Below, one piece after another: positions 1-20,556 of a DNA stretch of 64,000 nt. Both the position numbers and the translations under genes were made by a program. Position 1 is the stretch's first letter. Every line of letters begins with the position of its first letter. Origin of the DNA: Petrosia ficiformis (Eukaryota > Porifera > Demospongiae > Haplosclerida > Petrosiidae); NCBI GenBank assembly GCA_947044365.1, contig OX345640.1:4576001-4640000 (forward strand). The letters are read 5' to 3'. The notes under the pieces are model-generated. The model saw only the letters and a program-made list of their open reading frames with translations, was not told the DNA's origin and ran no database searches.

Positions 1-430
1 AGGGTATAAAAATTAATTATTATAATTATCATCATTATAAGTATGTATTTGAAACACACAGTAATGACATTGTAAATTATTATTGAGTTAGGCATTTTCA
101 ATGTGATAGTGCAAGAACATCAGCCGATCTCATACAGCATTGTGATATGAGATAATATAATAATACACACAGAGAATGTACTGGAACTGATACTAAATAG
201 GTGCTGTTACCATTAGTAGTCAAATTTGGAATATAATGCATAGCTCAATTCATAGCATATGGACACAAATTCTATGGGTGAAGTTTACACATGTCATGCA
301 ATGACTCTGTTCTCTCTTCCCTTGCCCATGTATCTGTGAGAGCCTGAAAGCAAAGTTAGGTGGCAGAATAACAGGAAGAGACTTGTTATGAATATGATTA
401 AATTGTGTAATTCTTAAACCCACAATAGTA
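1..430 (+). repeat. Segmental duplication unit, first copy
   Basis: The stretch from about 10 to 225 is closely matched by about 10,210-10,430 (shared blocks include gtatttgaaacacacagtaa and cttttcaatgtgatag/cattttcaatgtgatag). In both places it leads into the TATA/stem-loop module described separately. No coding frame is evident. This shows that the modules were spread in part by duplication of larger segments. Confidence 0.7.
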
Positions 431-547
431 TCAGTAACAGTTGACTATATAAGGAATCTGTTTTGAGCTTAAAATTAACTACCATCTAATTGTATCTTAT
501 ATCCTAATTTTTGAATGCCTACTTCTATTTCGAGTACATAAGTAGGC
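366..547 (+). ncRNA. Module copy 1: conserved promoter block, TATA, variable body, Sm-like site, stem-loop
   Basis: An upstream block (366-445) is nearly identical to four other copies in the window. It is followed by TATATAAG at 446-453, a body that does not align with the other copies, AATTTTTGAA at 506-515 and a stem GCCTACTT (517-524)/AAGTAGGC (540-547). The order distal element, TATA, short transcript, Sm-site, 3' hairpin resembles small Sm-class RNA genes such as U7 or SL RNA. No known RNA is recognised, and transcription is not shown. It could instead be a non-coding repeat with a preserved end. Confidence 0.4.
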
Positions 548-559
548 TGTTCAAATAAA

Positions 560-1440
560 TATTAAATATTACATGTGTCTTTGGTGACCAGAAATAATTA
601 ATTTTGATACTATTGTAATCGTGTAGCTTGTGAATGAGTATTGATGATATTAAGTGCTATTCCAATACTATATATATTTGAGAATTAAAAAGTGTTAGTA
701 ATAAAGTGACAGAATAGGGATGTGGAAACCCAAGTACATTGTATCAATATTCGAAAATTCATATAAGTGTTGGAGATGTGATTTTAGTTATCTGTACAAT
801 TTCCTGAAATGGTCTCAGTGTTATAGCTCACCAAAGTTCAACAGAGTAGTGCTGACACAAAACTCAAAGCATATTTGTGATTTAATTGCATTCCCTTTGA
901 CCACAAGAAAGAGAAATGGCATTGCATAGAGCAATGCAGCATCTCTCTTCCACTCTTTAGCTAGAACCCTGAGTCTCATTAATGTACTATGCTCTTGAAA
1001 AGTATATTAATTACTCAACTTTATATAATTAGAAGTGACTTTGTTTCTTTTGTATTAATTAATTGTGTCACATGTTTCCATATTTTCAACTGTCCAACAT
1101 TTTGAAAGTCTCCACTCCAGACATTTCCTCCCCTCATGAAACAGATAATTTTGAGACTAAGCCAACTCATGTACATGTACATACATATACAAGTACTATA
1201 TCTATTTATCGTAGATTGTGTATGCTAAATATTTACCCAATAACAATCCATAACCATACATGTATATGTATACATCTATCTATTTATACTCATACATAAT
1301 ATATATTATATCAGACCTGGGTTCAATTACAATTGTAATTATAATTCAATTAACAATTACAGCTAAAGTTGTGTAATTTTAATTGTAATTGATACATATG
1401 TCAGTTAAGTACAATACAATTGTAATGGTAATGTAATTTA
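560..1440. other. Non-coding stretch with a duplicated block
   Basis: About 575-735 matches about 20,385-20,545 and its mirror near 48,190-48,360 (shared words: ggtgaccaattaattttgat-like, cagaatagggatgtggaaac). This is the downstream flank of module copies 1 and 6. About 1,310-1,440 is made of short AATTGTAATT-type repeats. The small open frames here have no recognisable domain. Confidence 0.55.
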
Positions 1441-1478
1441 ATATAAGTCATAAAGATGTACTGCAGTTACACCAGCAG

Positions 1479-2380
1479 TTTTTATGGCCCGTAGGGCCAT
1501 CCCTATAATTGCTTTCCACAGGGTTTAATGTATATATATAATTATATATAATTATAATTATTATAATTTATATATAATTTATATGTTTGTGTCACTTGCG
1601 CGACTATGCGTTGTATACGTAGTTAAGGAAGTTGCGTCATTCTCGAGGGGCTTGGTCAATTAATGGGCGTGGCGCGTAAAAGAACGCGCGTTCGAGTTAC
1701 AGACAAGCCAGTAGTGATGGGCGATACCAGAAATTTCCATTTCGATACGATACCAAGTAGTTTGGGATTGAGTATCGATAGTATCGAGTACTGGAAAACT
1801 GCGCATGTTCAGTAACACGTGGCCACTGCCACGTGTTACTGAGCATGCGCAGTTCTCTACACTGGCCTGAGGACTTCAAAAAAATTAATTATAATCAAAT
1901 TTTATTAAAGTTTATTAACCGCACATAATTAAATTAAGGGCGTGGTTTGGTATTGATTACTCGTTAATGCATTCATTCGATACCAATACTACTCGATACT
2001 AAGCTAGTATCGGTAGTATCGATATTATTTCGATAGTATCGCCCATCACTACAAGCCAGGAAGATTCAGAAACTGCTAATAACTGTTCCATATAGCAGAG
2101 AAACAGTATAAATATTATGCAAGAATCTTTAACAAGTAAGTATAATAAGTTGTTAAGTTTCAGATATGAGGAAATCATCATTTAGAACCTTGTAGGAATA
2201 CTTCAGTCAGTTCATCAAAGATCTGTGTACTTAGACTGCAATCAGGCTTACACTTACTTCTTCAGGCCCCAGCTTTCGAGTACACAGAAAGGGAGAGACA
2301 CTAGTGCCATCAGCAATGCTTAGTACATAGTCATCACAAAGCAAATATAGGGATGTTTTTTTTTCTCTATATACACTTGT
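1479..2380 (+). mobile_element. Family X repeat, copy 1 (interrupted by a hAT MITE)
   Basis: It begins with a ggcccgtagggcc hairpin followed by atccctataattgctttcc. It then has an AT tract, a conserved block (cgtagttaaggaagttgcgt; ggtcaattaatgggcgtggc) and ends with atagggatg, a T-run and ctctatatacacttgt. Copies in either orientation lie at 4,069-4,577, 9,945-10,135, 17,400-19,098 and 63,620-64,000, with fragments near 28,640 and 39,535. The short inverted ends (catccctat/atagggatg) and the terminal hairpin suggest a non-autonomous DNA element. The superfamily is not determined. Confidence 0.6.
1712..2051. mobile_element. hAT-type MITE with 8-bp target duplication
   Basis: The terminal inverted repeats start TAGTGATGGGCGATAC and end GTATCGCCCATCACTA. 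The flanks carry a perfect 8-bp duplication CAAGCCAG at 1704-1711 and 2052-2059. An 8-bp duplication with these termini is diagnostic of the hAT superfamily. The element is 340 bp long and non-coding. It sits inside family X copy 1, so it is the younger insertion. Confidence 0.88.
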
Positions 2381-2439
2381 TTGTACTTATCATCAAAGAA
2401 TCTATTTAGCCATTCCAGTGTTGTCAGCACCAGTGTAGA

Positions 2440-2880
2440 TAACATCATGTATATAAGTACATGTATTTCCCAACACAAAGTGCCTATTATATGTTACATG
2501 TACATTTTCATTTTTCCATTGCCTCAGGTGTCTTTCTTTCTGTCTTTCTTTCTTTCTTTCCTTATAATATCATGTATATAAGTACATGTATTTCCCAACA
2601 CAAAGTGCCTATTATATGTTACATGTACATTTTCATTTTTCCATTGCCTCAGGTGTCTTTCTTTCTGTCTTTCTTTCTTTCTTTCCTGATAATATCATGT
2701 ATATAAGTACATGTATTTCCCAACACAAAGTGCCTATTATATGTTACATGTACATTTTCATTTTTCCATTGCCTCAGGTGTCTTTCTTTCTGTCTTTCTT
2801 TCTTTCTTTCCTGATAATATCATGTATATAAGTACATGTATTTCCAACACACAGTACCTATTATATGTTACATGTACATG
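2440..2880 (+). repeat. 125-bp tandem repeat, about 3.5 copies
   Basis: Units begin near 2,443, 2,568, 2,693 and 2,818 and are almost identical. Each contains a CATTTTCATTTTTCC block, CTCAGGTGTCTTTC and a (CTTT)n tract. The same block forms the 3' tail of the tRNA-derived SINE at 14,278-14,400, so the array probably arose from a SINE tail. The overlapping open frames repeat with it and are not genes. Confidence 0.85.
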
Positions 2881-4068
2881 ACATTTATACTTGTTAATAC
2901 TACAATAGTACATGTGTTTCCTCCAAAATGTAGTACCATATGGTACTCCCTCACCCTTTAGCCTTACTTCTCAACTCTTTAATACTGAAATACATGTAGA
3001 TTATTATACCTATAAGGAGGGACTGAAGTCCTCTATAAGAGCATACTCAGAACACTGTCAAATGTTTGAGAGCTTTGAATGGTTGTATATACTATTGATA
3101 TTTTAATAGCGGTGGGTGATACACAAATGTTTATAACCAACATGATACTGAGAAATACAGAGGCCAATATTGATATTATTTTCAATATGATACTGTTTTG
3201 TATAGCATGTGTAAATTTGTTAATAATGGATAATTAATTATTTTAAATGGGTGTGGTTATAATAAATATTTGAAGACTAATTACTTATTAATGAAGAATA
3301 TTAATTATTTATAAAGGTTAAAGTTAATTATCTTGTAAAATAGGTGTGGTAATATGGAATTGGTAACCTTGTGAAATCAGAGCTCTCAAGTCTCACGCAT
3401 TGCATGTGAGACACACGCATTTTATGCAAAACTCACGCTCGTGTCTTCATATTCACACATATCAAGTCAGGATATAGATGTAGGCGTCTACATAAGGGCG
3501 TGTCTCAGTTTTACCACAAAATGAGTGATGTCCAAGTTTGCCATCAAAGGCTAAGATTACTTTGATACTGATTGAACCCTAACCTACCCCTAACCCCACC
3601 CTAAATGAACCACATAATAATGTTCATGAAATTTTGATGGCAAACTTGGACATTATTCATGATTATTTAACAAAACATGAATCATGGCTGAGTGATCAAT
3701 GATTCTGATGAATAACTACAAGAAGCACCTACAAAGAGACTAAGGCTTGATTGTAGTTTCAATTCTGTCAGTAGGACATTCTTTAGCTTATAAGAGCAAA
3801 TTCCAGAAAAGCTATTTTACAGACTGCTAAAAGGACAACTATAGAATACAACAAAGCACATAGTAACAAAATTCAGTTATATGACAGTTATTAGTTGTTT
3901 ATTATGTAATGAGATTGAGTAAAGACACATCGCACTCATAACTATAGCACTCTCAATAATTTTCAATTGTGTTGTCACTCATTTTAATGCTGAGAGGATG
4001 AGAGCTCTGTGAAATTCAATAAGGAACAAATTATTATATCACAATTATTAGTAAACTAAACAAGTGTA
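2880..4068. other. Non-coding stretch with a small foldback element
   Basis: An inverted repeat pairs tccaagtttgccatcaaa (about 3,530) with tttgatggcaaacttgga (about 3,635). Its loop at 3,576-3,605 holds irregular CCCTAA-like runs. Near 3,105-3,400 there is a degraded sequence resembling the GGTGATAC termini of hAT MITEs. No gene is visible. Confidence 0.45.
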
Positions 4069-4577
4069 TATAGAGAAAAAAAAACATCCCTATGAATGTT
4101 TTACAAATTTAAATATCCCTATGACTGCTTTGTGGTGTCCAGCATTCAGTAATCATGGCTGACTTTATCAATCCTGAAACACATCAGCCTATTATAGTTA
4201 TTATTTTGATTATCTACTCTTTACCTTTTAAAGAACCTTGTAGAACTTTAAGAATATATTTCAGGTAGAATGGCTAGCAGTTTCTACGTAAGTTACACAG
4301 CTTTCTTACTGCTGGTCTGTACTCTCTGTAGAGCTAGGAGCTTGAGCGCACGGTTTCTTTTATGTGCCACGCCCATTAATTGACCGAGCGCTGAGCCCCC
4401 GGGAATGACGTAACTTCCTTAACTACGTATACAACGTATACTCGTGTAAGTGACACAAACATAATAAATTATTATAATAATTATTATTATAATATTATAT
4501 ATATAATTTTATATTATATATTTTATATAGTTCGAAGCTATGGGAAAGCAATCATAGGGATCTATAGGCCATAAAGA
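4069..4577 (-). mobile_element. Family X repeat, copy 3
   Basis: This copy is in reverse orientation to copy 1. It shows gtatatagagaaaa then acatccctat at the low end, the block cacgcccattaattgaccga, acgtaacttccttaactacg, and aagcaatcatagggat at the high end. The middle is degraded. Confidence 0.6.
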
Positions 4578-4746
4578 ATTAAGGTGGTACTGGTGCCAAA
4601 TAGAGCCGTTTTCTGAAAATTCATTTTAAACTCCGATCCCGGGTGGGTGTGGCTTCCAAAAGATACAGAATTGTATGCAGCAAGAAGCTGGCAAGACTAG
4701 AAACCGATTGGAGTTTCATCTACCCCTCCCCCTAGTACAACCTTAA
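4578..4746 (+). mobile_element. Family W repeat (AAGGTGGTACT termini)
   Basis: It starts aaggtggtactgg and ends ctagtacaacctta. The related sequence at about 52,500-52,822 runs in the opposite orientation, ends agtaccacctta and shares gccgttttctgaaaattcat-like and gattggagt words. It is a small non-coding element with short inverted ends. Confidence 0.5.
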
Positions 4747-5329
4747 TAATCAGAAAAGTGCCCAACAAACTATAGAAAACAAAAGACAGACAAACAAAAC
4801 AATTACCATACCCTCCCACCTAAGCGAGGGTAATATTCAGTTTTGAATACGGCTTCCCGAAAATTCATATTATTTTTATGCCTCCATGTAATGTTGATCT
4901 GAGTTTATTCCAAACAGTGCTTTTATATTCTCTATAATTATATCTACAGACCTATTGTGGGTTTTATGGTTGAGTGTATATATTGGGAATGAAGTACAAC
5001 ATCCTGTCATCTTATAAACCTCATTCGGATTAGGAATTGGCTACCAACAGACTTCAGTATCAAATAAAAGGCAGACTTTTTCTAAAACCTTTCGCTTATA
5101 AAGTTATTACTATTTTTATCATAAACTTATTAATTATAGTCATGTTAAAGAAGGAGCAATCTGCATGCTCACTGGGTTTTCTGTGAAACGAAGTATTGTT
5201 ACTGCAAACGTACAACATTTAAATAATAATTATGGATACTGATAATCATTAATATAACTGTTTAGCATGTGTTTGTATAGTTTGACTGTCATGTGTGAAA
5301 AATGCGTAAGCTACAATTAATTTTAAAAT

Positions 5330-8300
5330 TTATTTAAATCTTCTTTTCTTTCTGCCCCTTTTTCTTCTTCTCCTTCTCCTTCCTTTATTTCTTCGCTTTC
5401 TTTCCTGTATCAAAGTAATGAGGTACACAGTAGTCTATAATTATTATTATTCTTACTCTAACATGTTTTGCTTTGTGAAATGTTTCTTCCTTCATTTCTA
5501 TTTCTATACTCTGATTCTTAAGTTTAAAGGGTAACTGCAACAGAAAAATTTTTTGGTTTATTTTTGCAGAAAATGATAGTATTTATTACCAAAACAATGT
5601 GTATCAAAAATTAAACGATGTATCAAATCCCAACAGGGAATAATAAGCTGCACAAAAACTGCACTTTGTAAGGTTGCAGTAGTTTAATTTTCTTATCCCA
5701 CCCACGCTTCCTGTTTAATGCAAGCGCTTCCTCATAAAAAGGAAACGGGGCGCGGTTTTTACGTGACATCACAGAAGGGAGTCAATCTCGTGAAGTTGCC
5801 TCATCGTTCGAGTATTATTGCAAGCAACATACATCAAGAACATGGTTCTTCACATCTACCTGTTCAATTAATAAGTATATTTATTTATAGTGTTATTGCA
5901 AAAAAATACCTTTTGTTTAGGTGCTAAGACGGGGCTGGTTGGGACGAGATATCAGGGTGGTTGTTCTGTCGTGTGGAGTTAATATAATCATAAACTCATT
6001 TCCCCCAACAGAGAGTATATATTGGATTTCATATGTATTACCCTAATATTTTTTTATAATAATAGTATGCATGAATGAAAAAAAAAAACTGGTAGGAGCT
6101 TTGGTTGTGCTATGACTGCTTTGACTCAATTCTTCATCTGCAATATTCTCTTCTGACCTTGTTATTAAACTGGACTGTATCCCCATCTCACAAACTGATG
6201 GCACTATCTGTATACCTGTAAACGTGTTAAGTATTTAGTAATCTTACAATTAATTTTGTCATACATTAATTAGCTGTACATTTTACTACTACAGGGTGAA
6301 CTTGTAAGCAAACGTTGCTTTTCTGAACATTTTCTGTGCTTACAGCAGTGCTAACTTTAATAACTGATAGAGTCTCAGTTGCCACATCTTTTAACTTTAC
6401 ATCCTTCATCAATGAATGTGAAGTTCCTGTTGCAACACTTTTATGGTCTACCTGTGTACTTCATGGCACTACAAAAGAATGATAAAACCAAGTAGCATCA
6501 CTGTTTGGAATATTGTTTAATTTATGTAAATAGATCATATATAAAAAGTAACTGACTAAATAATTAAGCATTTCAGAAAATTAACACAAAAAGGAGATGC
6601 AAAAAAATTATTTAACACCATAGAATTGTAAATTGTGAAGTTATTTCTATAGCATGCTGATATCTCTAACAGTGAACTATTTTTTAATAATTACACAAAT
6701 CTGTTTGTATGTACCTTCACATGTGAAGCAAAAATGTTGGTCTCATCTTCACTGTTCTCTTGTCCATAACTCCCTAACTTCTCACTTTCATCATTAGAAT
6801 TTTTGATCATCATTTCTTGTATTATCTAATAAAAATAGTAATACATTAATAAATATATGTAATACTAATATAAGTCAAAATTATAGCCTCATCTCACTTT
6901 CTGTCTATTTCTTTTCTCAAATGCTGTCCTTTTTTTCTTGGTTCAGTTTCATTACTTCTCAGCAAGTTAGAACTGCATTCTTCTGAGCTACAAGGAGGTT
7001 CTCTTGTTCTTTTAAAAATAGTAGGTACAGCATCGTTTTTCAGTGTTGGTCTTTGTTTTATTCCAAACTTTCTAAAGACTTTTCAAAGCAGTCTGCAGTA
7101 AAGTGTGTGCTGCACAAAACTGAATAATGGCTTGGACCACTCGGTCCACTCCACTTATCCCTTGTTCTTTTCACAGCATCTGCCCATTGTTTTCTTAAAT
7201 GTGGATGCTGAGGAAACTTAAATAAGCTCACACCATCAGTATGTTTGTTAATACAGCCTGCAGCCACACACGAATTCATCATTCTTCACGAGATTGACTC
7301 CCTTCTGTGATGTCACGTAAAACCGCACCCCATTTCCTCTTTATGAGGAAGCGCTTGCATTAAACAGGAAGCGTGGGTGGGATAAGAAAATTAAACTACT
7401 GCAACCTTACAAAGTGCAGTTTTTGTGCAGCTTATTATTCCCTGTTGGGATTTGATACATCATTTAATTTTTGATACACATTGTTTTGGTAATAAATACT
7501 ATCATTTTCTGTAAAAATAAAAAAAAATTTTTTTCTGTTGCAGTTACCCTTTAAGTCCTTCCATTTGTTTGCCATTTCTCTTGCTCTCATTAAGAATGAT
7601 AATAGGATGAGTATGATGTTCAGTTGCTGTCTTTTCACTTTTTGGCACTGTTAACAAATCCTTAAGCTTATCTTCTTCATCTTGGTATTTCTTTTCACAG
7701 TCAACATCCATTTTGTTACCATCTACTTCAATCGACTCCTCTCCTTCATTCCCATGATCACCCTCTTTGATATCACTCAAGTGATTGTGTATGAATTTAT
7801 ATTCAGTTGCAAATGATTTAGATTCCTCCTCTTCGTCACAGTCACAACATTCTTCTGTTAGTAGCTCACCTGCAATCTGTTGAGTCTTCTTTTTTGTTAG
7901 CTTCTATTCCAACAGATTCCTTGTCAGTTTCATCAACATTCAGTTGGTTAATGAATAATATTTTAATGGCAAGTAATGTCTCTTCTTCATCTTCATTACC
8001 AATTGTACCCTCTTTGACTACACTAATGTCCTTTTCTCCTTGATCATAATGTAAAATATTTTTTGTTGTAAGAGATCTAGATTCCTCCTTTTCTTCACAG
8101 TCAAAGTCTTTTACATGCTGTAAAAGCTGTTCAGAGCACTTAGTTTGTTTATCCTCATCCACTGCTATTGGGTCTTCTTTTTCATTACCTTCCATTCCAA
8201 CAGATTTCTTGTCAGTTTCATCAACATTCATTTGGTTAATGAATAATGTTTTAATGGTAAATGATGTCTCTTCTTCATCTCCATGACCGATTGCACCCTC

Positions 8301-9035
8301 TGCAACTACACTAATGTCCTTTTCTTTTTGATCATAATGTACAATATTGTTTGTTGTAAGGGATCTGGATTCCTCCTCTTCATCACAGTCACAATCTTCT
8401 ACTACATGCTGTAAAACATGTTCAGAGCTCTTAGTTTGTTTATCATCATCCACTGCTACTGGGTCTTCCTTTTTGTGATGTTCCTCTTTGTCCACATTTT
8501 CTTCATCAGTAGCACATTCCTTTTCTTGGGCATCATGTTTAATAACATTTGAAACTTCCAGTTTATTAATCTCAAAATCGTTTACATCAATTGAGTTTTC
8601 CTGGTTGTCAAGAAGTGGAACATGTCTATTATCATCTTTAATTGGGTCCTCTTTGTCTTCGACTACAATTATTATGTTCCCTTCTCCATTGTCATGATGA
8701 ACATGATCATTAGAGACTGCTAGTTCTTTGTTTACATTCTCAATGTCCTTCATACCATTTAAATTTTCATGGCTATCAGTAAGAGGAACAATTAAATTCG
8801 ACACTTCTTGATTATTATTTTCAGCAATTGGGTTCTCTTTGTCTTCGACTGCAATTTCATTCTCTTCTTCAAGAATATATTCAATTACAACTGAATTTTC
8901 TTCAACAGCATTGGTTTGATTTAGGCTGTCTTCAGCATTTACGTATTCTGCAGCATTGCATTGAGTAATATCATCTGTATGAATGGTTTCATCATCATCT
9001 TCAGATTTAAAACAGCAGAAAAGTAGCCTCTTTAA
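5330..9035 (-). CDS. Glu/Asp-rich repeat protein, disrupted
   Basis: No known family is recognised. On the minus strand a frame stays open from about 9,035 to 7,866 (about 380 residues). It is very rich in Glu, Asp and Lys and contains two copies of a unit of about 95 residues (key words KEDPVAVDDDKQTK, ESRSLTT, YDQKEKDISVV, FINQMNVDETDK). A third, decayed unit (CCDCDEEEESKS) follows in another frame after a one-base shift near 7,870. That frame runs to 7,555, where a TTAA-flanked transposon (5,528-7,550) interrupts it. Past the transposon the same frame continues (5,523-5,457). After a possible 52-nt intron it ends in an Arg/Lys-rich tail (5,404-5,330) that looks like a nuclear-localisation or nucleic-acid-binding end. 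The start codon and upstream exons are not identified. The frame shift and insertion suggest a pseudogene or a broken allele. Confidence 0.5.
5528..7550 (-). mobile_element. Kolobok-like DNA transposon (TTAA target site, THAP domain)
   Basis: The ends are AGGGTAACTGCAACAG and its complement CTGTTGCAGTTACCCT. Long terminal inverted repeats of about 270 bp (5,528-5,800 and 7,280-7,550) are flanked by TTAA at 5,524-5,527 and 7,551-7,554. The 1.5-kb interior keeps only a THAP-domain segment. TTAA duplication together with a THAP domain fits the Kolobok superfamily; piggyBac also uses TTAA but lacks THAP. With no transposase core visible, this copy is non-autonomous or internally deleted. Confidence 0.75.
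6893..7282 (-). pseudogene. THAP zinc-finger domain, frameshifted
   Basis: The 74-residue first part has the C2CH THAP layout: Cys-5 and Cys-10 (CVAAGC), a GVSLFKFPQHPHLRKQW block with the invariant Trp, and CSTHF near residues 57-61. The typical following motif DAVPTIF is present, but in another frame from about 7,067 down, where the reading continues (FGIKQRPTLKNDAVPTIF) to a stop near 6,893. THAP domains bind DNA and occur in P-element, Kolobok and cellular proteins. It lies inside the TTAA element and is read away from its right terminal repeat, so it is probably the remnant N-terminus of that transposase. The frame break makes a working protein unlikely unless spliced. Confidence 0.75.
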
Positions 9036-10135: not shown

Positions 10136-10204
10136 AATATTTTGCAATAAATGTTAATTTAAAATGCGTTACATTATCATGTCATGTAATATTAGAAGAC
10201 ATTT

Positions 10205-10440: not shown

Positions 10441-10452
10441 CTTGAGATGTTA

Positions 10453-10621
10453 GTAACAGGAAAAGACTTGTTATGAATATAATTAAATTGTGTAATTCTT
10501 AAACCCACAATAGTGTCAGTAACAGTTGAGTATATAAGGAATCTGTTTCATAAGGTTTATTACTATCACATTTCTCTCTTATCTTAAATTTTTGGGTGCC
10601 TACTTTACTTCCTAAGTAGGC
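10453..10621 (+). ncRNA. Module copy 2: promoter block, TATA, variable body, Sm-like site, stem-loop
   Basis: The conserved upstream block is followed by TATATAAG at 10,531-10,538, AATTTTTGGG at 10,587-10,596, and a stem GCCTACTT (10,598-10,605)/AAGTAGGC (10,614-10,621). Apart from the shared AAGGAATCTGTTT just after the TATA, the body differs from copy 1. Confidence 0.4.
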
Positions 10622-10639
10622 TAAATTAAGTGTTCATGT

Positions 10640-11180
10640 AAACATTAATTGACTGACTATTTAGCATTCAAGAAGAGTTCTGTACACTTCAAAAACAGCC
10701 TGGAGAGAACCCTGGATATTAGTTTCCACAAGCTTACATGTTGTATTTCTTCTTCCTGGTCTGTTGTAGCTCTAGGCTCAATCACCTTATCATTAATTGA
10801 CCAAATACAATTGTGACTGCTACAACATCAAACATTGAACATTCATACAATTCATTCAAGCTCCATGTTTTTTTACCATGGCTACATAAATAGTTAGCCC
10901 CCGTTACAAATTTTGTGACCATATAACTTCAATACTAATAATGGAAGTACTACTATTACCAGTGTGTATGTGTTAGACTCCAGGTTTCCTTATAGTTTAT
11001 ATACACTGGAGGCTAACATAATACTTCTGTACTATACATGTGTAAAGCACATGTCTATACTTGTAGATATAAAGATTGTTATATGGAATTAAGCTTTCAG
11101 CAGCTAAATGGAGGAACAGGAATAATGAAAAAGTAATCTGTACATCAATAATGTTTATATTGTGTATTTTTCAATTTTTG
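10640..11180. other. Stretch with no recognised feature
   Basis: AT-rich sequence without long open frames or clear repeats. Confidence 0.4.
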
Positions 11181-11735
11181 CAAAGGCCCCTAGAGTGGTG
11201 ATACGTTGCAAGGGCCCCTAGAGTAGTAATATGTTGCAAGGGCCCCAAGAGTGGTCATACGTTGCAAGGGTCCCTAGAGTAGTAATATGTTGCAAGGGCT
11301 CCTAGAGTGGTGATACGTTGCAAGGGTCCCTAGAGTAGTAATATGTTGCAAGGGCCCCAAGAGTGGTCACACGTTGCAAGGGTCCCTAGAGAAGTAATAT
11401 GTTGCAAGGGCCCCAAGAGTGGTCATACGTTGCAAGAGTCCCTAGAGTAGTAATATGTTGCAAGGGCCCCTAGAGTGGTCATACGTTGCAAGGGCCCTAC
11501 AGTGGTGATATGTTGCAAGTGCCCCAAGAATGGTCATACGTTGCAAGGGTCCCTAGAGTAGTAATATGTTGCAAGGGCCACTAGAGTTGTCATACGTTGC
11601 AAGGGTCCGGTCCCTAGAGTGGTGATATGTTGCAAGGGCTCCTAGAGTGGTCATACGTTGCAAGGGCCCCTAGAGTGGTGATATGTTGCAAGGGCCCCTA
11701 TAGTGGTCATACGTTGCAAGGGCGCCTAGAGTGGG
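11181..11735 (+). repeat. 28-bp minisatellite with strict two-unit alternation
   Basis: About 20 units of GCAAGGGCCCCTAGAGTGGT followed by SATACGTT or AATATGTT. The CGTT and TGTT unit types alternate without exception through 19 scoreable units, so the true repeat unit is a 56-bp dimer. It is much richer in GC than its surroundings. Confidence 0.92.
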
Positions 11736-11984
11736 CTAAGCATAGTAAATGCAATAAGACGTATGGATAGCTATCTGTGAAGACTATCACTGGCAAAACA
11801 CTACACTGGCTCTAAGCTTTCTGACATGACAGTCACTTCTAGCTCTACCTACTTCATGTTAATGTAGACTTGTAACTATACGCGTGATGCTAGCATAATT
11901 AATTTAAAGCTTGCAAAAATGAAATTCAGATACACATATGATCGGACAAATTAAAGTCTTCAAATAAGATGAGTTGTATTTCCA

Positions 11985-12140: not shown

Positions 12141-12144
12141 TTGA

Positions 12145-12550
12145 GAATAACAGTGGCAGTCAGTGGGAATTAAACCCAGGGCCACTGACTTCACCCACCA
12201 GTGCTCTCACCACTGAGATACAACAACCAGGCAACCATCAGCACTTCACAATCTTCACTTCCCTCTCTTTTAGCCTTATTTATTCATTGGAATTTAACAT
12301 TTTATTTTGAATGAGGGAGATTAGCAAAGCATTAGGAATCCTACAAAGCATTTATATGCCTTTACTCCTAAAGGAGTAATGTTTCCAGTTGACTCCTAAC
12401 TAGGTTATGACAGCACATACATTGTGGGCTGCCTGGTATGTGACTTCAGTTCCAATTGGGCATTGTATATAGAGGATTGTGAAGTGCTGATTGTTGTAGC
12501 TCAATGATGAGAGCACTGGTGGCTGAACTCAGTGGTCCTGTGTATAGTGT
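12145..12550 (-). mobile_element. Head-to-head tRNA-derived element, copy 1
   Basis: The low end holds, on the minus strand, a tRNA-like head with an A-box-like sequence (tatctcagtggtgagagc) and a B-box-like sequence (complement of gggaattaaaccc, 12,165-12,177). The high end (about 12,488-12,545) holds a second related tRNA-like segment on the plus strand (gtagctcaatgatgagagca). The two heads form inverted ends around a 270-bp centre. A close relative is at 19,520-19,905, so the inverted arrangement was itself propagated. Confidence 0.65.
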
Positions 12551-12633
12551 CACTGTAGAAATTCAGTTTGTGCTATGCAATCTCTGTTCTCTCCCTCCCT
12601 GCCTATGTACCTGTGAGAAGCTGACTAGGTGGT

Positions 12634-12790
12634 AGAATAACAGGAAGAGACTTGTTATGAATATAATTAAATTGTGTAATTCATAAACCCACAATAGTAT
12701 CAGTAACAGTCGACTATATAAGGAAGGCAATATACTTCCAATCATAACTTCTTGAAACTTTTGGAGTACCTACTTTTAATAAGTATAGGC
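12634..12790 (+). ncRNA. Module copy 3: promoter block, TATA, short body, Sm-like site, stem-loop
   Basis: The conserved upstream block leads to TATATAAG at 12,715-12,722, a body shorter than in the other copies, AACTTTTGGAG at 12,756-12,766, and a stem CCTACTT/AAGTATAGG (about 12,769-12,789). The Sm-like part and stem are tandemly duplicated just downstream. Confidence 0.35.
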
Positions 12791-12885
12791 TAAGTACAGT
12801 GAAACCTCTATAATGCGGACATTTTGGAGTACCTACTTTTAATAAGTATAGGCTAAGTACAGTGAAACCTCTATAATGCGGACAC
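12759..12885 (+). repeat. 63-bp tandem duplication of Sm-like site, stem-loop and pogo-like end
   Basis: Two copies, offset by 63 bp, of TTTTGGAGTACCTACTTTTA through CAGTGAAACCTCTATAATGC. The latter sequence resembles a Tc1/mariner-pogo terminal repeat found in many animals; no partner end is seen nearby. Confidence 0.7.
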
Positions 12886-13416
12886 CATTGGGACCAGCTT
12901 AAAGTGTCCTTATTTCAGAGGTTTATTATTATCTTTACCTACATTGTATTCACATCATAAATTAAATGGACATGTACATGCATGTCTTTTAAATGAAATT
13001 TTGGTGGTGAATAGGACGTGGGAACCCAAGTATCAATATTATAACTTTCAGAAATGGTATTAAAGTATGATATTGTATTGTACATCATTATAATTTGTGT
13101 CATTGGTTGTTGGTGTTGTTGCTATACCATGGCTGCTTCTTCATATACGTAGTGGGGGTGTGGTTTTGTTACTATTTATAGTAGTGAATAGTTATGTATA
13201 GAAATTTCCAGAAATGATGACTTTATAATATACTATACTCATGAATGTGATTACTGAATGCCTCACAGTGCAGAACCCTCACCACAAGTGTTATTGGGAA
13301 ATGAGAACAATGATGAGTATTGTAGCTATATTGCACATTCAAACTACTTATACAAACCACAGAATACAATCATTTCATCCTTGAGTGACATCCTGATATA
13401 ACCCAGTACTCCTAAC

Positions 13417-13764
13417 TAGGGATGTGCGATACCACTAAATAATAGTATTGCATATTGCTGCCAAAAATATCACGATACGATACAGTATCACGATATTTGA
13501 AATAATATTGAAACACTTATAAAATGTAAATAAATGTCCTATCTGGATGTATTTGTCAAGAAATGGTAAAAGAAATCAATGAAAGTTATGCACACTAGCT
13601 ATTTATAATTACTTTTATAGGTATCAAATCACACAAATTAGAAAAACCATGTTTACTAAACTGTCCATTCCAGTGTTTCGATACACCCAAAAGCTAATAT
13701 TGTATCACGATATTAAATGAAAATATCGATATTTCGATATATCGATACGTATTGCACATCACTA
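13417..13764. mobile_element. hAT-type MITE with 8-bp target duplication
   Basis: The ends are TAGGGATGTGCGATAC and GTATTGCACATCACTA. The flanking duplication CTCCTAAC lies at 13,409-13,416 and 13,765-13,772. The 348-bp non-coding interior is rich in ATCGATA words. It is a sister family to the element at 1,712-2,051. Confidence 0.87.
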
Positions 13765-14277
13765 CTCCTAACATACTTCAATAAAGTTCGAATGCAGTCC
13801 AGAAATTTCCATAGTAACTAGGTGAGACTGTTTCATGTTATGACAGTAATATCAAACAGAAAACTTCATTTCAATTGGACCACTCCCTAAATATTTATTA
13901 TTATAGTAATCAAAAATGGTTTGATTGCCTGAGTACCTACCACCTTAGGGCCAGTTTCTTGATGTAACCATTGCTACTATTAATAGAAACAATTGCTTCT
14001 ATAAATACAAACCGCACCCATCCTTAACAACAATGATAAACCCTTGGGAATACATCTTGAGCCAATTAACAAATATACTTATAATTAACTGTGCAGTACT
14101 AAATAACAATCTGTTTGGACCAATGGTGCGCCATACAAGCTTATCAAAAACACTGATCCATAGCCATATACACAATGTATGTATGCATCTATCTATTTAT
14201 ACACATACAACCAAGTGTTAAGTTAGTCTGTTTATATAGGCATATGAGATGTTTGATTCGGACCCTGCCAGCTGGGC

Positions 14278-14400
14278 TGCCTTGGTAGCTCAGTTGGTAG
14301 AGCATCTGTCTGGAGTACAGAGTGCGAAACCCACCTGATGCAACTCTCATTTTCATTTTTCCTTTTCCTCAGGTGTCTTTCTTTCTTTCTTTCTACAAAC
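14278..14400 (+). mobile_element. tRNA-derived SINE
   Basis: The tRNA-like head has an A box in TAGCTCAGTTGGTAGAGC (from 14,286) and a weakened B-box region (gtgcgaaacccacc). It is followed by a CATTTTCATTTTTCC block, CTCAGGTGTCTTTC and a (CTTT)n tail. The body after the head matches the 125-bp tandem unit at 2,440-2,880. A (TG)n tract follows at 14,406-14,435. A true tRNA is unlikely because the acceptor and T arms are not intact. Confidence 0.7.
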
Positions 14401-14402
14401 AT

Positions 14403-14436
<34 letters not shown>

Positions 14437-14439
14437 CAG

Positions 14440-15390
14440 AAAAAAAGATAGACAGTGTTTGCCAGATCCTCAGGCCATCAACTGAACGAACAGGCGGCCG
14501 TACGGGGACTGACTCGCAACTGAATAACAGACCTCTCTCTGTCAAGAGGTAACTTCTCCTCTGAAGCTTCAGTGGTACGAGTATCTGACATTTACTTCAT
14601 TTCATTGATATCCTATAAAGCTAAAGTACTAAGCTTAAAAAACTAGACAGGCATAGTAGGTCTCCCTTCAGCTCTTGTTTTCTATTTTCATGTTTTATCC
14701 AACTCATCTGGATGGTCTGTTGTTATTATGTTAGCATGCAGGCTTACAGTGTCTATACGCTTTGTTGATTATAGTAAAATGTGGTATAGATTAGCAATTA
14801 GCTACTTAACATAAAGCAGTGTGATAAATAGTATTAACAATCTTAACTTTTAACACATTCACATATGGTTTGATTCTTTGGTGTTACTAGACTCTTGACA
14901 GGGATAGTCTGGTCTTGGGAACCAGAACTGGGGGTTAAAGAAATCTTTGGTGGGATCCCAACCCTCCCCTCTCTATCCGTATCTGAAAATGCTTATAGAG
15001 TCCTGTTTACCAATGCATCATTAAATACATGTAGTAATAGCTCATTTACAAAACCTTGAAGTTAAATAATTGCCCATTCTTACTGGATTATAAAAGATCC
15101 TACTCCCTTGAAAACTTTACCTACCATGTGCTTATACACATGTGCTCTCCTAATTAACTTAGGTGGGCGTTTTTAATTAATTATTGCAAGGCTATTACTA
15201 TTACAGATGCTGTTGTGTGTGTCTCTGTGTCTGTGTGTCTGTGTGTCTGTCTGTGTGTCTCTGTGTGTGTGTGTGTGAAAGGTAGTCTGTCCTTCCATCT
15301 ATAGTATATAGTGAAGAACACATCTAAGTAACTTTTAAATGTCAATATCTATTTATGATACTATATTGATACCACCTCATCACTTGCATT
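14440..15390. other. Stretch without a gene
   Basis: It contains a TG/CTG-rich microsatellite at about 15,208-15,278. About 15,285-15,360 matches the upstream flank of module copy 6 (gtccttccatctatagt, 20,120). Nothing else is supported. Confidence 0.45.
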
Positions 15391-15392
15391 TG

Positions 15393-15569
15393 AGAATAAC
15401 AGGAAGTGACTTGTTATGAATATAATTAAATTGTGTAATTCTTAAACCCACAATAGTATTAGTAACAGTTGACTATAAAAGGAAGGGTTTGGGTGATTCA
15501 GTTTTATATCTTCACTGTCGTGTACAAAAAAAATTTTTGAGTGCCTACTCCTAATTCTAGTAAGTAGGC
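15393..15569 (+). ncRNA. Module copy 4: promoter block, TATA, variable body, Sm-like site, stem-loop
   Basis: The conserved upstream block leads to TATAAAAG at 15,474-15,481, AATTTTTGAG at 15,532-15,541, and a stem GCCTACT (15,543-15,549)/AGTAGGC (15,563-15,569). The body after AAGGAAG differs from every other copy. Confidence 0.42.
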
Positions 15570-15627
15570 TAAGTTAAGTGTTCACATAATAATTTACACA
15601 TGTACATGTAATCATGTATGTATAGGA

Positions 15628-16208
15628 TCAGGAGTCCATGATGGAGAGCCATAAAGAAAGGAGTAGGTGTGTGAAGCACCCACGCGTTAACGAGATTTTC
15701 CTTCAGCCTAACTTGGCTAGCGGATATACTATTTTTAGAACACGTTCCTGACCGCGCCCAAAGCATTTTCCTCGTGCTCATGCTTGCTCAATGAAATGGC
15801 GTCTCCAACGAGTGTTGTCGACCTTTTCGCCTGTCCTTACTCCACGAAGATCTCCCAGACTAGCAGCCAGGTGTTCTTCCAACATTCTGACTCCAGTTAG
15901 AAACAGTTTGAGAAGCTTTGCGTTGGCAAAAGGAGTGCCTGGTAGTGATGTCTTCACATTAATGCATTTGAAGCGCTTCATCGAAGAATACGCATCCCTA
16001 ACTGCTGAAGTAGCCACCACAGATGTTAGTAACAACACACTGACAAATTTCTTAATCTTAACAACGTGACTGATGGGCGTGGATGTAAACATTGGGTTCT
16101 AAAAATAGTATATCCACTAGCCAAGCTAGGCTGAAAAAAAATCTTGTTAACGCGTGGGCGCTTCACACTCCTACTCCTTTCTTACCACTCTCCATCATGG
16201 ACTCCTGA
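15628..16208 (+). mobile_element. Inverted-repeat element carrying an open frame
   Basis: Inverted ends of about 115 bp (TCAGGAGTCCATGATGG at 15,628; complement CCATCATGGACTCCTGA ending 16,208) are flanked by TAGGA at 15,623-15,627 and 16,209-16,213. The centre, about 350 bp, is more GC-rich than its surroundings and holds an open frame. The superfamily is not determined. Confidence 0.7.
15791..16069 (+). CDS. Short open frame inside an inverted-repeat element
   Basis: A 92-residue frame starting at an ATG. The N-terminal half is basic and contains TPRRSPRLAARC, a motif type seen in several chromatin-associated proteins. The C-terminal half (HLKRFIEEYASLTAEVATT) could be helical. No family is recognised. 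The frame sits in the unique centre between two inverted repeats, so it may be a captured host exon or a remnant of the element's own gene. An opposite-strand frame (15,778-16,092) overlaps it, and codon use cannot decide between them by eye. Confidence 0.3.
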   Translation: MKWRLQRVLSTFSPVLTPRRSPRLAARCSSNILTPVRNSLRSFALAKGVPGSDVFTLMHLKRFIEEYASLTAEVATTDVSNNTLTNFLILTT

Positions 16209-16609
16209 TAGGATATAGCCCTGGTTGGAGGGGCAGTTGTGGGCAGGATAATTGGTCGAGGGCGTAGCCTGAGACAATTATCTCAAGGGTGTTATATGCC
16301 GTCTCCAAACAGTATTTTATACCATGGTAACACAAAAGTATGCAATTAAATCATATTTGACATCCTGTTGTCAAATAGAAACCCTAGTACTACGCCAATT
16401 AGTGTTTACTGTAAAAACTGTGAAAATACAATTAGTGACTAGTCACTAAATCTCCCTGTCTACAGACATGTTATGGGCATATATCTCCAGCAGTACATCA
16501 ATGATACTGCTAAAAATTAAGTTGATACAATATCGATAGATATCACCAATATATCGAAGATATCGATATGATTTTGATACGATGTAGAGACCACACATAA
16601 TTTTCATAA

Positions 16610-16656
16610 TCACTTATAAACAATTTAATCATATTCATAACAATTCTCTTCCTGTT
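16610..16656 (-). repeat. Inverted fragment of the module promoter block
   Basis: On the minus strand it reads aacaggaagag, then ttgttatgaatatgatta and aattgt. This is the start of the conserved upstream block, about 120 bp before the full plus-strand module copy 5. Together they make a promoter-block inverted repeat. Confidence 0.7.
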
Positions 16657-16726
16657 TTAATTTTTTATTATCTTGTGCAATTTGAAGTCTGCTTGTAGCT
16701 CATTTGAAGTGCTAATTTGCTAGAAG

Positions 16727-16898
16727 AGAATAACAGGAAGAGACTTGTTATGAATATGATTAAATTGTGTAGTTCATAAACCCACAATAGTATCAGTAAC
16801 AGTTGACTATAAAAGGAAGAGTTTTTTTGATAGTTAAATTTGTAATATGCAACACAATTTTGTTAATAATTTTTGGAGTGCCTACCCTCTAAGTAGGC
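16727..16898 (+). ncRNA. Module copy 5: promoter block, TATA, variable body, canonical Sm-like site, stem-loop
   Basis: The conserved upstream block is followed by TATAAAAG at 16,808-16,815, AATTTTTGGAG at 16,868-16,878 (a very good Sm consensus) and a short stem GCCTAC (16,880-16,885)/GTAGGC (16,893-16,898). The body between is unrelated to the other copies. Of the set, this copy looks most like a small Sm-class RNA gene. Confidence 0.45.
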
Positions 16899-17199
16899 AT
16901 AACTATTTAATGGATTACACATGTGTAAAAATTGTGTATCAGAGTGTAGTGATGGGCGATACCTTTTTTTCTTAGTTCGGTACGATACCGAGTACTTTGA
17001 AGCTCGGAACCGAAGGTACCGAATACGATACCGAGTACATAGTTTGTGCGCATGCGCAGAAAAACTATTGAGTTAGTTTGTGCAAGTATATGAATACAAT
17101 GTGTGTGTATTAATAAAATTTAATGTTTACTGAAAGTATAGTCTGTATTGACGAGAGAAATAGATAGTGTGAGAGGAATACTGTCACTTTGTGATCACA

Positions 17200-17307
17200 A
17201 TTGTAGATTATCATGTTGAGGAAGAGCAGAATATCGGCATTTTTTGGCTTCAACCTATTTCGCCTCTCGGAAACCAATTGACCAGCCTTTGAGAAAAGTT
17301 GTTCCAA
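17200..17307 (-). pseudogene. hAT transposase C-terminal dimerisation domain fragment
   Basis: The frame EQLFSKAGQLVSERRNRL followed by KPKNADILLFLN matches the hAT C-terminal dimerisation motif (E.LFS.AG....R.RL.P.N.. .LLFLN). It lies inside the hAT element on its minus strand. The rest of the transposase is absent, so this is a relic. Confidence 0.85.
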
Positions 17308-17399
17308 TGGAACTGATGATCCAGGGATGCATAAGAACTATAATTATTTTAAAAATTATTGTTGCAGGTGATAATAATAATTATTATTAAAATAAAAAC

Positions 17400-19098
17400 A
17401 AGATATATAGAGAAAAAAACATCCCTATATTTGCTTTGTGATGACTATGTATTAAGCATTGCTGATGGCACTAGTGTCTCTACCTTTCTGTGTACTCCTG
17501 GGGCCTGAAGACGTAAGTGTAAGCCTAATTGCAGTCTAAATACACAGATGTCTGATGAACTGACTGAGGTACTCCTTCAAGGTTCTAAATGATGACTTCC
17601 TCGTGTCTGAAACTCAACAACTTATCATACTTACTTGTTAAAGATTCTTGCATAATATCTATACTGTTTCTCTGCTATATACAACAGTTATTAGCAGTTT
17701 TACATCCATTCTGAATCTTCCTGGCTGGTCTGTAGCTCAAACGCGCGTTCTTTTACGCGCCACGCCCATTAATTGACCGAGCCCCCCCGGGAATGACGCA
17801 ACTTCCTTAACTACGTATACAACGCATAGTCGCGCAAGTGACACAAGAATATATATATATTTATTATATATATGTGACGCGCTCTGTGAAAAGGTGGCTA
17901 TCTTTTTAAATTTAATATTTTTGTATGGGCTCAATAATGCAAAAAACACGCCAAGTGGCGAAATCGTGTTTATTGTAGTTTCATGAGGACAAATACCTTG
18001 GCTATCTCTACCAGCAGTTTCAAAGTCCAGATCCACGTAGTTTTTCCAGAACGAGTGTTTGTTCAGAGTCGGTCAGAAATGTTTATAACGCCATTAAAAA
18101 ATTAACGGAGATGTAACACTAAACGAAACACGGAATTCCCTGACCGCTGGCCTCGCCCCCTAGCAACAAGCATAGTAACGTATTTGTCTGATGGCTTCAA
18201 GGAATTCTTCTGATATTGCATGCAATTAAAAGAGCTTTTTTCAAAGCTCACTGACCCCATTGGACATAGAATCACTCACTTCTTTCATTACTGATTATTT
18301 TTGGAATGAGGATGACCCAAATGTAAGGTAATTAGTAATTGTTATAATGTATTCATAGCATACACATGTACTTATAATAACAAATGAATATAATATATAT
18401 AATCAATAGACAATGAAGAGCAGGATGAAGACTTGAATTTTGAGGGTGAATTCATTCTCTAGAGATATAAATAAGCTGCAAATTGACATTGTTCTTGTAC
18501 AGGTCATAATGATGCAGTTGAATGGATGTGACTCTATGAAGAACAGAAGTAGTAGTGTAGTAGCATGCTCATACACTTCACTAAGGCACAGTATATATGT
18601 ATAAATACAAATGTTGTTCATAAGAATGATAATGAATTTAATGATACTAATAAAACTCATGTCTCACCTGTTTGCTGGATTTTCACATTTATAATGGGTC
18701 TCTCTGTCATGTTTCAATCCTTCTTACCTCGTAAATAAGGGTTAAATCGCTCGATCTTCAACAAAACTCTGAGTAGAAACTGTCTCCATCTTCCTGTTCA
18801 CAGTACTTACTTCGTTTACGGAAATATACGGAATTTAATAATAATCACATTAAATTGCATTTTTTGGGGAATTATGTGGAACCAAACAACTTAGCGTCTG
18901 GCTCGATATCTCGCGATTGCAATGTCGGATGGAAAAAGCGAATACACCATCAGATAGCCAAGAGAATGGGGAATCTAAAGATGTGAATATCTCATTTTTT
19001 TCAAAATAGTAAGATAGCCACCTTTTCTCATCCTGGGTCACATATACATTAAACCCCGTGGAAAGCAATTATAGGGATGGCCCTACGGGCCATAAAAA
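17400..19098 (-). mobile_element. Family X repeat, copy 2 (interrupted)
   Basis: The low end is acaagatatatagagaaaa then catccctatatttgc. Conserved blocks follow to 17,870, and the high end is ccccgtggaaagcaattata then gggatggccctacgggccat (about 19,045-19,098). It is inserted in the hAT element and itself split by the element at 17,871-19,044. Confidence 0.7.
17871..19044. mobile_element. Inverted-repeat element nested in family X
   Basis: The ends TATGTGACGC and GGTCACATA are each followed inwards by a shared gtgaaaaggtggctatctt (complement near 19,010-19,030). The inverted ends are about 40 bp with mismatches. The 1.1-kb centre contains short frames without recognised domains. It is the innermost of three nested elements. 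Confidence 0.65.
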
Positions 19099-19519
19099 TA
19101 ACGAGTCAATATTATTATTAGATTATAAATTATTAACAAATATTAAGGTTAAGTGGGTGTGGTTATGGTATCGAACGTAGTCGGTTCTGTTTCCAGTAAT
19201 CGGTACGAACAGTTTGTGTGCTGGAACCGAAGTATCGAGTACTTGGGTACTGGTATCGCCCATCACTATCAGAGTGAGAAATAGCTGTTCTCCAGTGCTC
19301 ATTTGAGCACCAGATTTTGACATGACAATGCATGCTAGTTGTACTGTGGTGAGCATTGGTGACAGCAGGCTTATTTCCCACCTTGATGTGTATGTTGTAT
19401 GTCTTATAAATGATATGTTTGAGATGATGGGATACTGAAAATGTTTTAATCTTACAAATAAGTGCTAAATTCAAATGAATAATGAATAGGCTGAAAGAGG
19501 AAAGTGAAAACAAAATGCT

Positions 19520-19905
19520 GGCAGTCAGTGGGAATTGAACCCAGGGCCACTGGCTTTAGCCACCAGTGCTCTCACCACTGAGATACAACGACCAGGCAAC
19601 CATCAGCACTTCACAGTCTTCACTTCCTCTTCTCTTTCAGCCTAGAATTTAATGTTTATTTTGAATGTGAGGGAGATTAGCAAAGCATTAGCATTGTTAC
19701 AAACCACTTATATGGCTTTACTCCTGATGGAATAATGTTTCCGGTTGACTCCTAACTAGGTGACAGCACATACATAGTGGCTGCCTGGTGCATGACTGAA
19801 GCATTCAATATCAATTGTGGCAGTATATATAGAGGATTGTGAAGTGCTGATTGTTGTAGCTCAATGACGAGAGCTGAACTCAGTGGTCCTGTGTATAGTG
19901 TCCAT
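19520..19905 (-). mobile_element. Head-to-head tRNA-derived element, copy 2
   Basis: The tRNA-like head on the minus strand has a B-box-like sequence (complement of gggaattgaaccc, 19,530-19,542) and an A-box-like sequence (complement at about 19,568-19,585). An inverted second head on the plus strand lies at about 19,850-19,895. It aligns along its length with 12,145-12,550. Confidence 0.65.
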
Positions 19906-20168
19906 GTGGATATTCAGTTTGTGCTACGCAATCTGCAGATTTCGCAAATTCCCAGATTGTGTGCAACATTCCCGGATTGTGCAGAACATATGTAAGTACA
20001 TATACTTCCCAACACACAGTGTGTTATATATAATATATACATAACACTTTCTAATAGTCTCAAACTTGTTGGGTTTATGGTTAGGACTTCATGTACATGT
20101 ATTTTAGGCTGTAGATTCTTCTGTCCTTCCATCTATAGTTTGGATAGTATAGTGAAGAACACCTCTTT

Positions 20169-20556
20169 TAAATGTATAATTAGACATATAATATTTATGA
20201 TACTAGATATGAAAATATTGTACTTGACCATTTTTGGAAGAGACTTGTTATGATTAACACTTGACCATATAAGGAATCTGTTGGGTGATAATCAAGGAAA
20301 TCTTGTTGTATACTTTATAGTGAAAGAGTGCCTACTTCTATTGCTAGTAAGTAGGTTAACTTACATGTTCACATGTATGTCTATGGTGACCAATTAATTT
20401 TGATACTCTTATAATCATGTAGCTTGTGAACGAGTATTGAGTACTATTCCAATACTTTATATACTTGAGAATGTTAATGTGTTTACATTCACTTCAAATT
20501 TTAAATCTGTCTACTAATTAAGTGTGACAGAATAGGGATGTGGAAACCTAAGTATT
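20169..20556 (+). repeat. Outermost block of palindrome A, left arm
   Basis: It is the reverse complement of 48,184-48,556 with few differences, and contains module copy 6. It is separated from the inner arm by 1.1 kb (left) or 1.8 kb (right) of sequence not shared between arms. Confidence 0.9.
20240..20355 (+). ncRNA. Module copy 6 (decayed)
   Basis: The promoter block is shortened, CATATAAG lies at 20,266-20,273, the Sm-like site is lost (tatagtgaaagagtgcc), and the stem GCCTACTT/AAGTAGG is kept (20,330-20,355). Probably inactive. Confidence 0.3.

Follow-up and report, generated by a model that had tools for sequence, protein, structure and literature searches.

A multi-class family of genes of the RNA polymerase II (Pol II) small nuclear RNA (snRNA) type is described here from the demosponge Petrosia ficiformis. 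Its modules lie in a stretch of 64,000 nucleotides (positions 4,576,001 to 4,640,000 of contig OX345640.1; G000:C5:4576001-4640000 in our numbering), to which we refer at its full length as the window, and were searched for in 191,215,263 bases on 29 contigs of the same genome. The genome report gives the assembly odPetFici3.1 as that of a haplosclerid demosponge with a span of 191.25 Mb in 35 scaffolds (PMC12648040). In each module a constant promoter and a constant end enclose a body that differs from locus to locus. The modules are very probably real Pol II snRNA-type genes. Promoter type, U1-like spacing, U1-calibrated RNA start, Sm site, hairpin and the existence of several classes can be read from the DNA itself.

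For the mechanism, we infer that the module RNAs are transcribed, capped, loaded with Sm proteins and base-paired, and we also infer their length. Our favoured reading, to which we give a probability of about 0.5, is an Sm-class RNA in which a fixed chassis carries a 5' address that is specific to the locus and pairs with RNA. Transcription would begin about 30 nt past TATA, and each gene would yield an Sm-class RNA with a cap and a length of roughly 65-95 nt. Its first 11-59 nt (median 34) are predicted to be mostly unstructured and peculiar to the locus, followed by the Sm-ring site (AAUUUUUG) and then by a 3'-terminal hairpin. That is, promoter and Sm/hairpin end would form the fixed chassis and the 5' segment the replaceable part, most likely an antisense address on other RNAs, as in U7 or HSUR RNAs, with targets that differ by copy.

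Module anatomy and promoter type

The first-pass annotation had placed five TATA starts in the window (446, 10531, 12715, 15474 and 16808), all of which are exact. It had given 41-60 nt between TATA and Sm site, and we measure 60, 56, 41, 58 and 60 nt for copies 1-5. A promoter 20-mer yields five window matches at up to 3 mismatches, compared to a mean of 0.00 in shuffles. Identity over the ten pairs of these copies averages 0.93 in the promoter, 0.77 in the tail and 0.49 in the body, with 0.46 for shuffled bodies. The word AATTTTTGRG, said to occur in each copy but one, is found in copies 2 and 4 only; copy 1 carries AATTTTTGAAT, copy 5 AATTTTTGGAG and copy 3 AACTTTTG. Taken alone, the word is not significant in the window (3 matches vs. 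0.74 expected; at least 3 in 8/100 shuffles). The significance lies in the whole module arrangement and not in AATTTTTGRG by itself. All five copies have the claimed layout, though not all are good ones: copy 3 looks damaged, as its Sm site is altered, its hairpin is imperfect and 63 bp are duplicated in tandem. A decayed sixth copy exists as well (about 20236-20356), with the hairpin retained and without proximal sequence element (PSE) and Sm site.

Searching the genome with the promoter block and the Sm/hairpin block, as the first-pass annotation had proposed, shows that the arrangement is widespread. A 30-base promoter probe finds 55 sites at up to 3 mismatches (control: 0), the pattern CCCACAA-(17-21)-TATAWAAG 219 sites (control: 5) and the Sm+GCCTA end AATTTTTGRRWGCCTA 64 sites (control: 0). 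At least 10 of the 100 pattern matches listed precede U1 genes. Many sites are clustered, those of class A (the class of the window copies) on the contigs C5 (which holds the window), C7, C10 and C11; other sites are single.

For class A we sampled the window and 20 stretches of 10 kb, which gave 94 promoter-like sites. TATA, a recognised Sm site and a hairpin start are present in 82 of them, for which AATTTTTG or a near variant was an inclusion condition; the 12 excluded sites comprise 9 without recognised Sm site and hairpin and 3 without TATA (one being a chance window site). A looser scan adds 7 sites, one of them plainly spurious. The TATA-to-Sm distance of the 82 modules is 40-88 nt (median 64).

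We computed an information profile for 65 non-redundant modules. The promoter through the GG after TATA shows 0.5-2 bits per position, the body about 0.1 bit (0.5 just after GG; 0.36 at TATA+28, with A in 35/65), and at AATTTTTG the information leaps to about 2 bits, followed by the GCCTA arm. The peaks at promoter, Sm site and hairpin are partly built in, since modules were chosen by inexact PSE, TATA, Sm and hairpin words, but the flat body is not; independent controls for the module ends are the genome-wide counts of the probe, the PSE-TATA pattern and the Sm+GCCTA end. Body identity within class A is 0.47 compared to 0.45 when shuffled (2080 pairs). The profile and these identities bear out the earlier description of conserved ends around a scrambled body, i.e., of something other than an evenly decaying repeat. 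Body length ranges from 11 to 59 nt around its median of 34, and 19/65 bodies have at most 27 nt.

With regard to structure, the modules have an Sm site of the AU4-6G form and a 3'-terminal stem-loop, as is expected for the Sm class. A stem of at least 6 bp is found in 77% of the 65 modules, in 61% with right halves swapped and in 20% when shuffled, all three percentages being raised by a stem finder that chose its position freely. As most arms resemble one another, the margin over swapped halves is modest. On average, the bodies are unstructured (mean z -0.21, n=63; 5% of the 63 below -2).

To identify the promoter we located U1 and U6 genes with Rfam models (13 U1 matches, of which 12 loci were read, and 3 U6 matches, one truncated). 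The U1 genes share the PSE of the modules (CCCACAATA); AACCCACAATA stands upstream of U1 and is followed by a TATA or TATA-like box. Measured from the first C of CCCACAA, the PSE-TATA spacing of U1 is 28 nt in 12/12 loci, and the U1 RNA starts 29-31 nt past TATA in all of them. The full-length U6 genes have the same PSE at 34 nt from TATA (2/2). For the modules we observe 27 nt in 78/82 cases, 28 nt in 3 and 26 nt in 1, i.e., the PSE at the Pol II spacing of this species. The spacing is near that of U1 and unlike that of U6, such that the modules are taken to be of the U1 (Pol II) kind with an RNA start expected about 30 nt past TATA. Judged by its resemblance to U1, the constant upstream block is the sponge's own Pol II snRNA promoter. 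The start-site prediction relies on the U1 genes and on one RNA with a conserved body (see below); together with the genome-wide copies they strongly support the original proposal of genes for small RNAs that start about 30 nt past TATA and have both an Sm site and a 3' hairpin.

Further upstream, CAGGAA and TTATGAAT-like elements are common to U1 or U6 too, as judged by eye. A U2-like match starts 31 nt past a pattern TATA and carries little weight, as its 40.8 bits are below the family cut-off of 46. Downstream of the modules, where an Integrator 3' box was looked for, TGTTCA occurs in 14/65 cases vs. 2.1 expected, without being identified as such a box. At one U6 locus (L010, C4:3165623) we observed an extra CCCACAATAG...TATAAAAG pair 100-150 nt upstream with 34-nt U6-type spacing by eye, which looks like a duplicated U6 promoter.

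The spacing also bears on RNA polymerase III (Pol III). U6-like genes that stop at the Sm-like TTTTT and make RNAs of 20-35 nt would likewise have TATA and PSE and could use the TTTTT tract within the Sm site, but the modules' spacing is near the 28 nt of U1 and not the 34 nt of U6, and the hairpin past the T tract is retained. We hardly credit such a Pol III origin.

The same anatomy recurs beyond class A. We read 20 short stretches with other PSE-TATA sites and found at least four additional classes, each with its own promoter variant and its own 3' end (classes B, C, D and E with n = 5, 4, 4 and 3). Among these stretches, L053 has promoters only, and L067 and L068 resemble class A or stand close to it. 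Promoter identity within the classes B-E is 0.78-0.94 and tail identity 0.73-0.83 (tails 0.72-0.83 with class A included), while body vs. shuffled identity is 0.50/0.43 for B, 0.54/0.48 for C, 0.54/0.51 for D and 0.55/0.48 for E. Two adjoining class B genes have bodies that are alike (0.82). The parallel classes, with few members each, provide what we see as the strongest argument that the variable body is a property of the system.

This anatomy is also what a selfish or dead repeat has to explain, i.e., an element like a miniature inverted-repeat transposable element that carries an snRNA promoter by chance. Multiple copies, some of them dispersed and single, and decayed copies are what such a repeat would leave. 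In the modules, however, both ends are conserved around an unalignable middle, and several classes with different 3' ends share one anatomy, so a repeat of this kind is very improbable.

Divergence of the body and its possible causes

The body is hypervariable, and its rate of change was compared with that of neighbouring DNA for 26 module pairs in duplicated DNA with flanks that align on both sides (the pairs overlap and are not independent). Body changes exceed those of the flanks at p<0.01 in 14/26 pairs. From these results we picked 11 pairs by hand to represent separate duplications, some of which share a member. Pooled over the 11 pairs, substitutions per site are 0.048 for the flanks, 0.037 for the promoter and 0.028 for the tail, compared to 0.172 from RNA start to Sm site, i.e., about 3.6 times the aligned flanks.

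One body is conserved across clusters. The gene at C10:5106225, of which a recent copy lies at C10:5.874 Mb, has a partner on the minus strand at C11:5.602 Mb (stretches L041 and L040). Their flanks are unalignable (0.38 of alignment columns; 0.48-0.53 by another measure, with shuffled bodies at 0.43-0.51). The promoters are similar near the PSE, and TATA+16 to +29 differs at 7/14 bases. From TATA+30 on, 23 nt are the same in both. One substitution and one 1-base indel come next, then 26 identical bases; just before the Sm site an A-run is one base longer. That is, conservation begins at the U1-calibrated RNA start, which supports this start and also a body that acts in a sequence-specific way in the C10:5106225 RNA. 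This gene and its partner are the best candidate family member for finding a function. Beside this pair, a trio of modules (L040:240, L040:3307 and L041:4721) has bodies at 0.73-0.81 identity with poorly alignable flanks (0.48-0.69).

The main competitor of the address reading is that these are Sm-class RNA genes with an unconstrained 5' spacer, whose useful parts are the Sm site and the 3' hairpin. The TATA-to-Sm stretch would drift fast because in strongly transcribed genes the region around the start mutates more, and selection and gene conversion would keep promoters and tails alike. We consider this plausible, if short of even odds. Both the conserved C10/C11 body, which starts at the predicted RNA start between unalignable flanks, and the trio that retains its bodies are difficult for a free spacer, as is the excess of the module RNA part (3.6-fold over flanks), which is larger than that found before the start of U1 (1.5-fold).

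Several observations nevertheless weigh against a locus-specific address under selection. First, 12/26 pairs show no excess at p<0.01, of which 8 are recent duplications with a flank divergence of at most 2.5%. Second, the stretch from TATA+9 to +29, which is untranscribed if the start is right, is also fast (0.127) and within error as fast as the RNA part (p=0.18). Third, U1 genes diverge faster at this place as well, with 0.094 before the start vs. 0.061 in the flanks (8 genes, 28 overlapping pairs, 13 of which have at most 25 flank columns). Finally, flank rates cover BLAST-aligned columns alone and are thus low estimates. The excess before the start and in U1 weakens the reading as selection on the RNA and fits a mutation hotspot at start sites, such as that reported for human (PMC12658150). 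The diversifying selection raised by the first-pass annotation thus keeps its premise, i.e., bodies that diverge more than aligned flanks, but selection itself is unproven, with the TATA-to-start stretch fast too and U1 likewise, though more weakly.

A drifting spacer is also in accordance with the wide range of body lengths and with the promoters of the duplicated C10 clusters. Class A plus-strand sites at C10:5.10 Mb carry CCCACAATAGCATCAC in 6/6 cases, those at C10:5.87 Mb CCCACAATAGTGTCAC in 4/6 and GCATCAC in 2/6. Of the three pairs readable in both clusters, two differ in the promoter variant but have the same or almost the same body, for which gene conversion among promoters would be the natural reading.

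The target searches point in the same direction. At up to 3 mismatches, the 23-mer of the conserved body matches the genome at its three own places only, none of them antisense; a second piece of this body finds the same three places and three weak matches vs. four in the control. This body is thus unlikely to have a long endogenous target, but may have short or foreign ones. A search with two other whole bodies, which would miss short matches, returned no match beyond the bodies themselves, and the complementarity of bodies to U1 and U6 is not beyond that of shuffles. Body matches to sampled sponge DNA exceed shuffles with z 3.7; nine flank segments do so with z 7.1 to 18.6, and the body excess is therefore no evidence for targets. 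Overall, the complementarity check that had been suggested for the 5' parts yielded no target, neither from genome searches with the conserved-body pieces and the two bodies nor from U1 and U6.

Feature positions and other elements of the window

Positions of the module parts and of the further classes are collected in Table 1.

Table 1. Parts of the class A modules in the window (window coordinates) and locations of further classes in the genome. DSE, distal sequence element.
Feature	Position	Strand	Details
Copy 1 promoter	370..445	+	DSE-like AACAGGAAG and TTATGAAT; PSE CCCACAATAG at 419-428
Copy 1 TATA TATATAAGG	446..454	+	
Copy 1 variable body	455..505	+	predicted RNA start about 476, calibrated on U1
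Copy 1 Sm site and hairpin	506..547	+	Sm site AATTTTTG 506-513; hairpin GCCTACTT...AAGTAGGC 517-547
Copy 2 promoter	10455..10530	+	PSE 10504-10513
Copy 2	10531..10621	+	TATA 10531-10539, body 10540-10586, Sm 10587-10594, hairpin 10598-10621
Copy 3 promoter	12639..12714	+	PSE 12688-12697
Copy 3, probably damaged	12715..12884	+	TATA 12715-12723, body, altered Sm AACTTTTG 12756-12763, imperfect hairpin
Copy 3 63-bp tandem duplication	12759-12821 / 12822-12884	+	
Copy 4 promoter	15398..15473	+	PSE 15447-15456
Copy 4	15474..15569	+	TATA 15474-15482, body 15483-15531, Sm 15532-15539, hairpin 15543-15569
Copy 5 promoter	16732..16807	+	PSE 16781-16790
Copy 5	16808..16900	+	TATA 16808-16816, body 16817-16867, Sm 16868-16875, hairpin 16878-16900
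Decayed copy	20236..20356	+	part of DSE-like block, ATATAAGG and hairpin retained; PSE and Sm site gone
Further class: ATTTTTTGGAGGGG(G)TGT, long hairpin	C3, 0.85 Mb		
Further class: AATTTTTGGAAGCCT..AGGCT	C3, 5.05, 5.35, 7.26 Mb		
Further class: AATTTTTGAAAGGGAG..CTCCC	C6, 4.58 Mb		
Further class, looser: GGGGCTC..GAGTCCC	C1		1/3 members with poor Sm site

Beside the modules, the window holds two large inverted repeats. The first (21659-34265 / 34760-46413) consists of five aligned pieces with arms of about 12 kb, 90.5-99.7% identity and a centre of about 0.5 kb. The second (48548-56208 / 56281-63184) has three aligned pieces, arms of about 7 kb with 93-99% identity and a 72-bp centre; both of its arms contain a sialate O-acetylesterase-like exon (53292-53882 and 58596-59186). 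A pair of 236-nt inverted repeats (5524-5759 / 7319-7554), 96% complementary and 1559 nt apart, is perhaps a non-autonomous DNA transposon. At 14279-14342 we observe a tRNA-like match to RF00005 (32 bits, cut-off 29), where ARAGORN finds no tRNA; the repeat that follows it recurs at 2503-2799. Finally, the repeats of a tandem array at 11122-11781 mostly have a period of 28 nt (17 overlapping copies of 152 nt).

Relation to known RNAs and significance

Among the nearest known systems is the U1 of the same genome, which has the PSE, TATA, spacing class, start position, Sm site AATTTTTG and 3'-terminal stem-loop in common with the modules. It differs in that its RNA is conserved, whereas the 5' part of the modules changes from locus to locus. 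In Rfam scans, the window yields the tRNA-like match alone and no snRNA family over the cut-off, and 20 loci yield 92 matches at E<=1, again without an snRNA family. Nematode SmY RNAs are short Sm-class RNAs in several copies as well, yet none of the Rfam snRNA families reaches its cut-off in the window. In genome contigs outside the sponge we found 0 matches to the class A promoter architecture. Among 31 loose matches to it in viral contigs, one (L092) has an Sm-like word downstream; we take all of these matches as chance.

The first-pass annotation had likened the modules to U7 snRNA or short spliced-leader (SL) RNAs; the similarity of layout holds, while membership in either family is unsupported. 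U7 has a 5' antisense segment, a 3' hairpin and a non-canonical Sm site, AAUUUGUCUAG. Copies of U7 would account for a short Sm RNA with 5' segment and 3' hairpin, and the U7 snRNA, with about 60 nt and an Sm-type site, is similar in this respect (PMC7026596). U7, however, is a single RNA whose Sm ring is special and which has a histone target, while the modules occupy many loci, have the canonical-type Sm site AATTTTTG, no constant 5' segment and no Rfam match. The U7 covariance model finds nothing over its cut-off genome-wide and 5 weak matches at no known module, and we regard U7 copies as extremely improbable.

SL RNA genes with many leader variants are a long shot, too. SL RNAs are similar in their clustered genes, Sm site and hairpins, multicopy clusters with many leader variants are known elsewhere, and hexactinellid sponges are listed as trans-splicing (PMC7986045). 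GTAAG, GTGAG, GTATG or GTAAA occurs in 8/65 bodies, a count without control. On the other hand, the modules have neither a constant leader nor a splice donor signal (score 3.35 vs. 3.22 +- 0.14 in shuffles; a score of at least 7 of 9 in 1/65 bodies, with 0.7 expected). They lack a 5' stem-loop on average (z -0.21), and the bodies of at most 27 nt (19/65) leave little space for leader and intron. Overall, the address and the spacer both fit better than SL RNA, U7, Pol III or a dead repeat.

With regard to mode of action, the Herpesvirus saimiri HSURs are similar to the address reading, as they are described as Sm-class RNAs whose action depends on binding to other RNAs (PMC6763288, PMC13158664). 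They differ in being viral and few, whereas the modules form a large genomic family in a sponge. Our literature search for such a hypervariable snRNA-type family found no description or counterpart.

Genes for snRNAs are among the most conserved animal RNA genes. An extended form of the address reading is a diversifying repertoire of guide Sm ribonucleoproteins (RNPs), in which about two hundred genes of the snRNA type, sorted into parallel classes and each built on the constant promoter and Sm/hairpin chassis, would carry a locus-specific 5' address evolving above the neutral rate. They would form a system of RNA-guided recognition that evolves as in an arms race. We deem it rather unlikely at present; the opponents in such a race may be viruses, transposons or rapidly changing transcripts. 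With addresses as 5' segments, the sponge would hold a natural library of U7-like antisense RNPs, comparable in design to antisense tools based on U7, which are engineered by hand. With drifting spacers, the family would provide a clean natural assay of start-site mutation.

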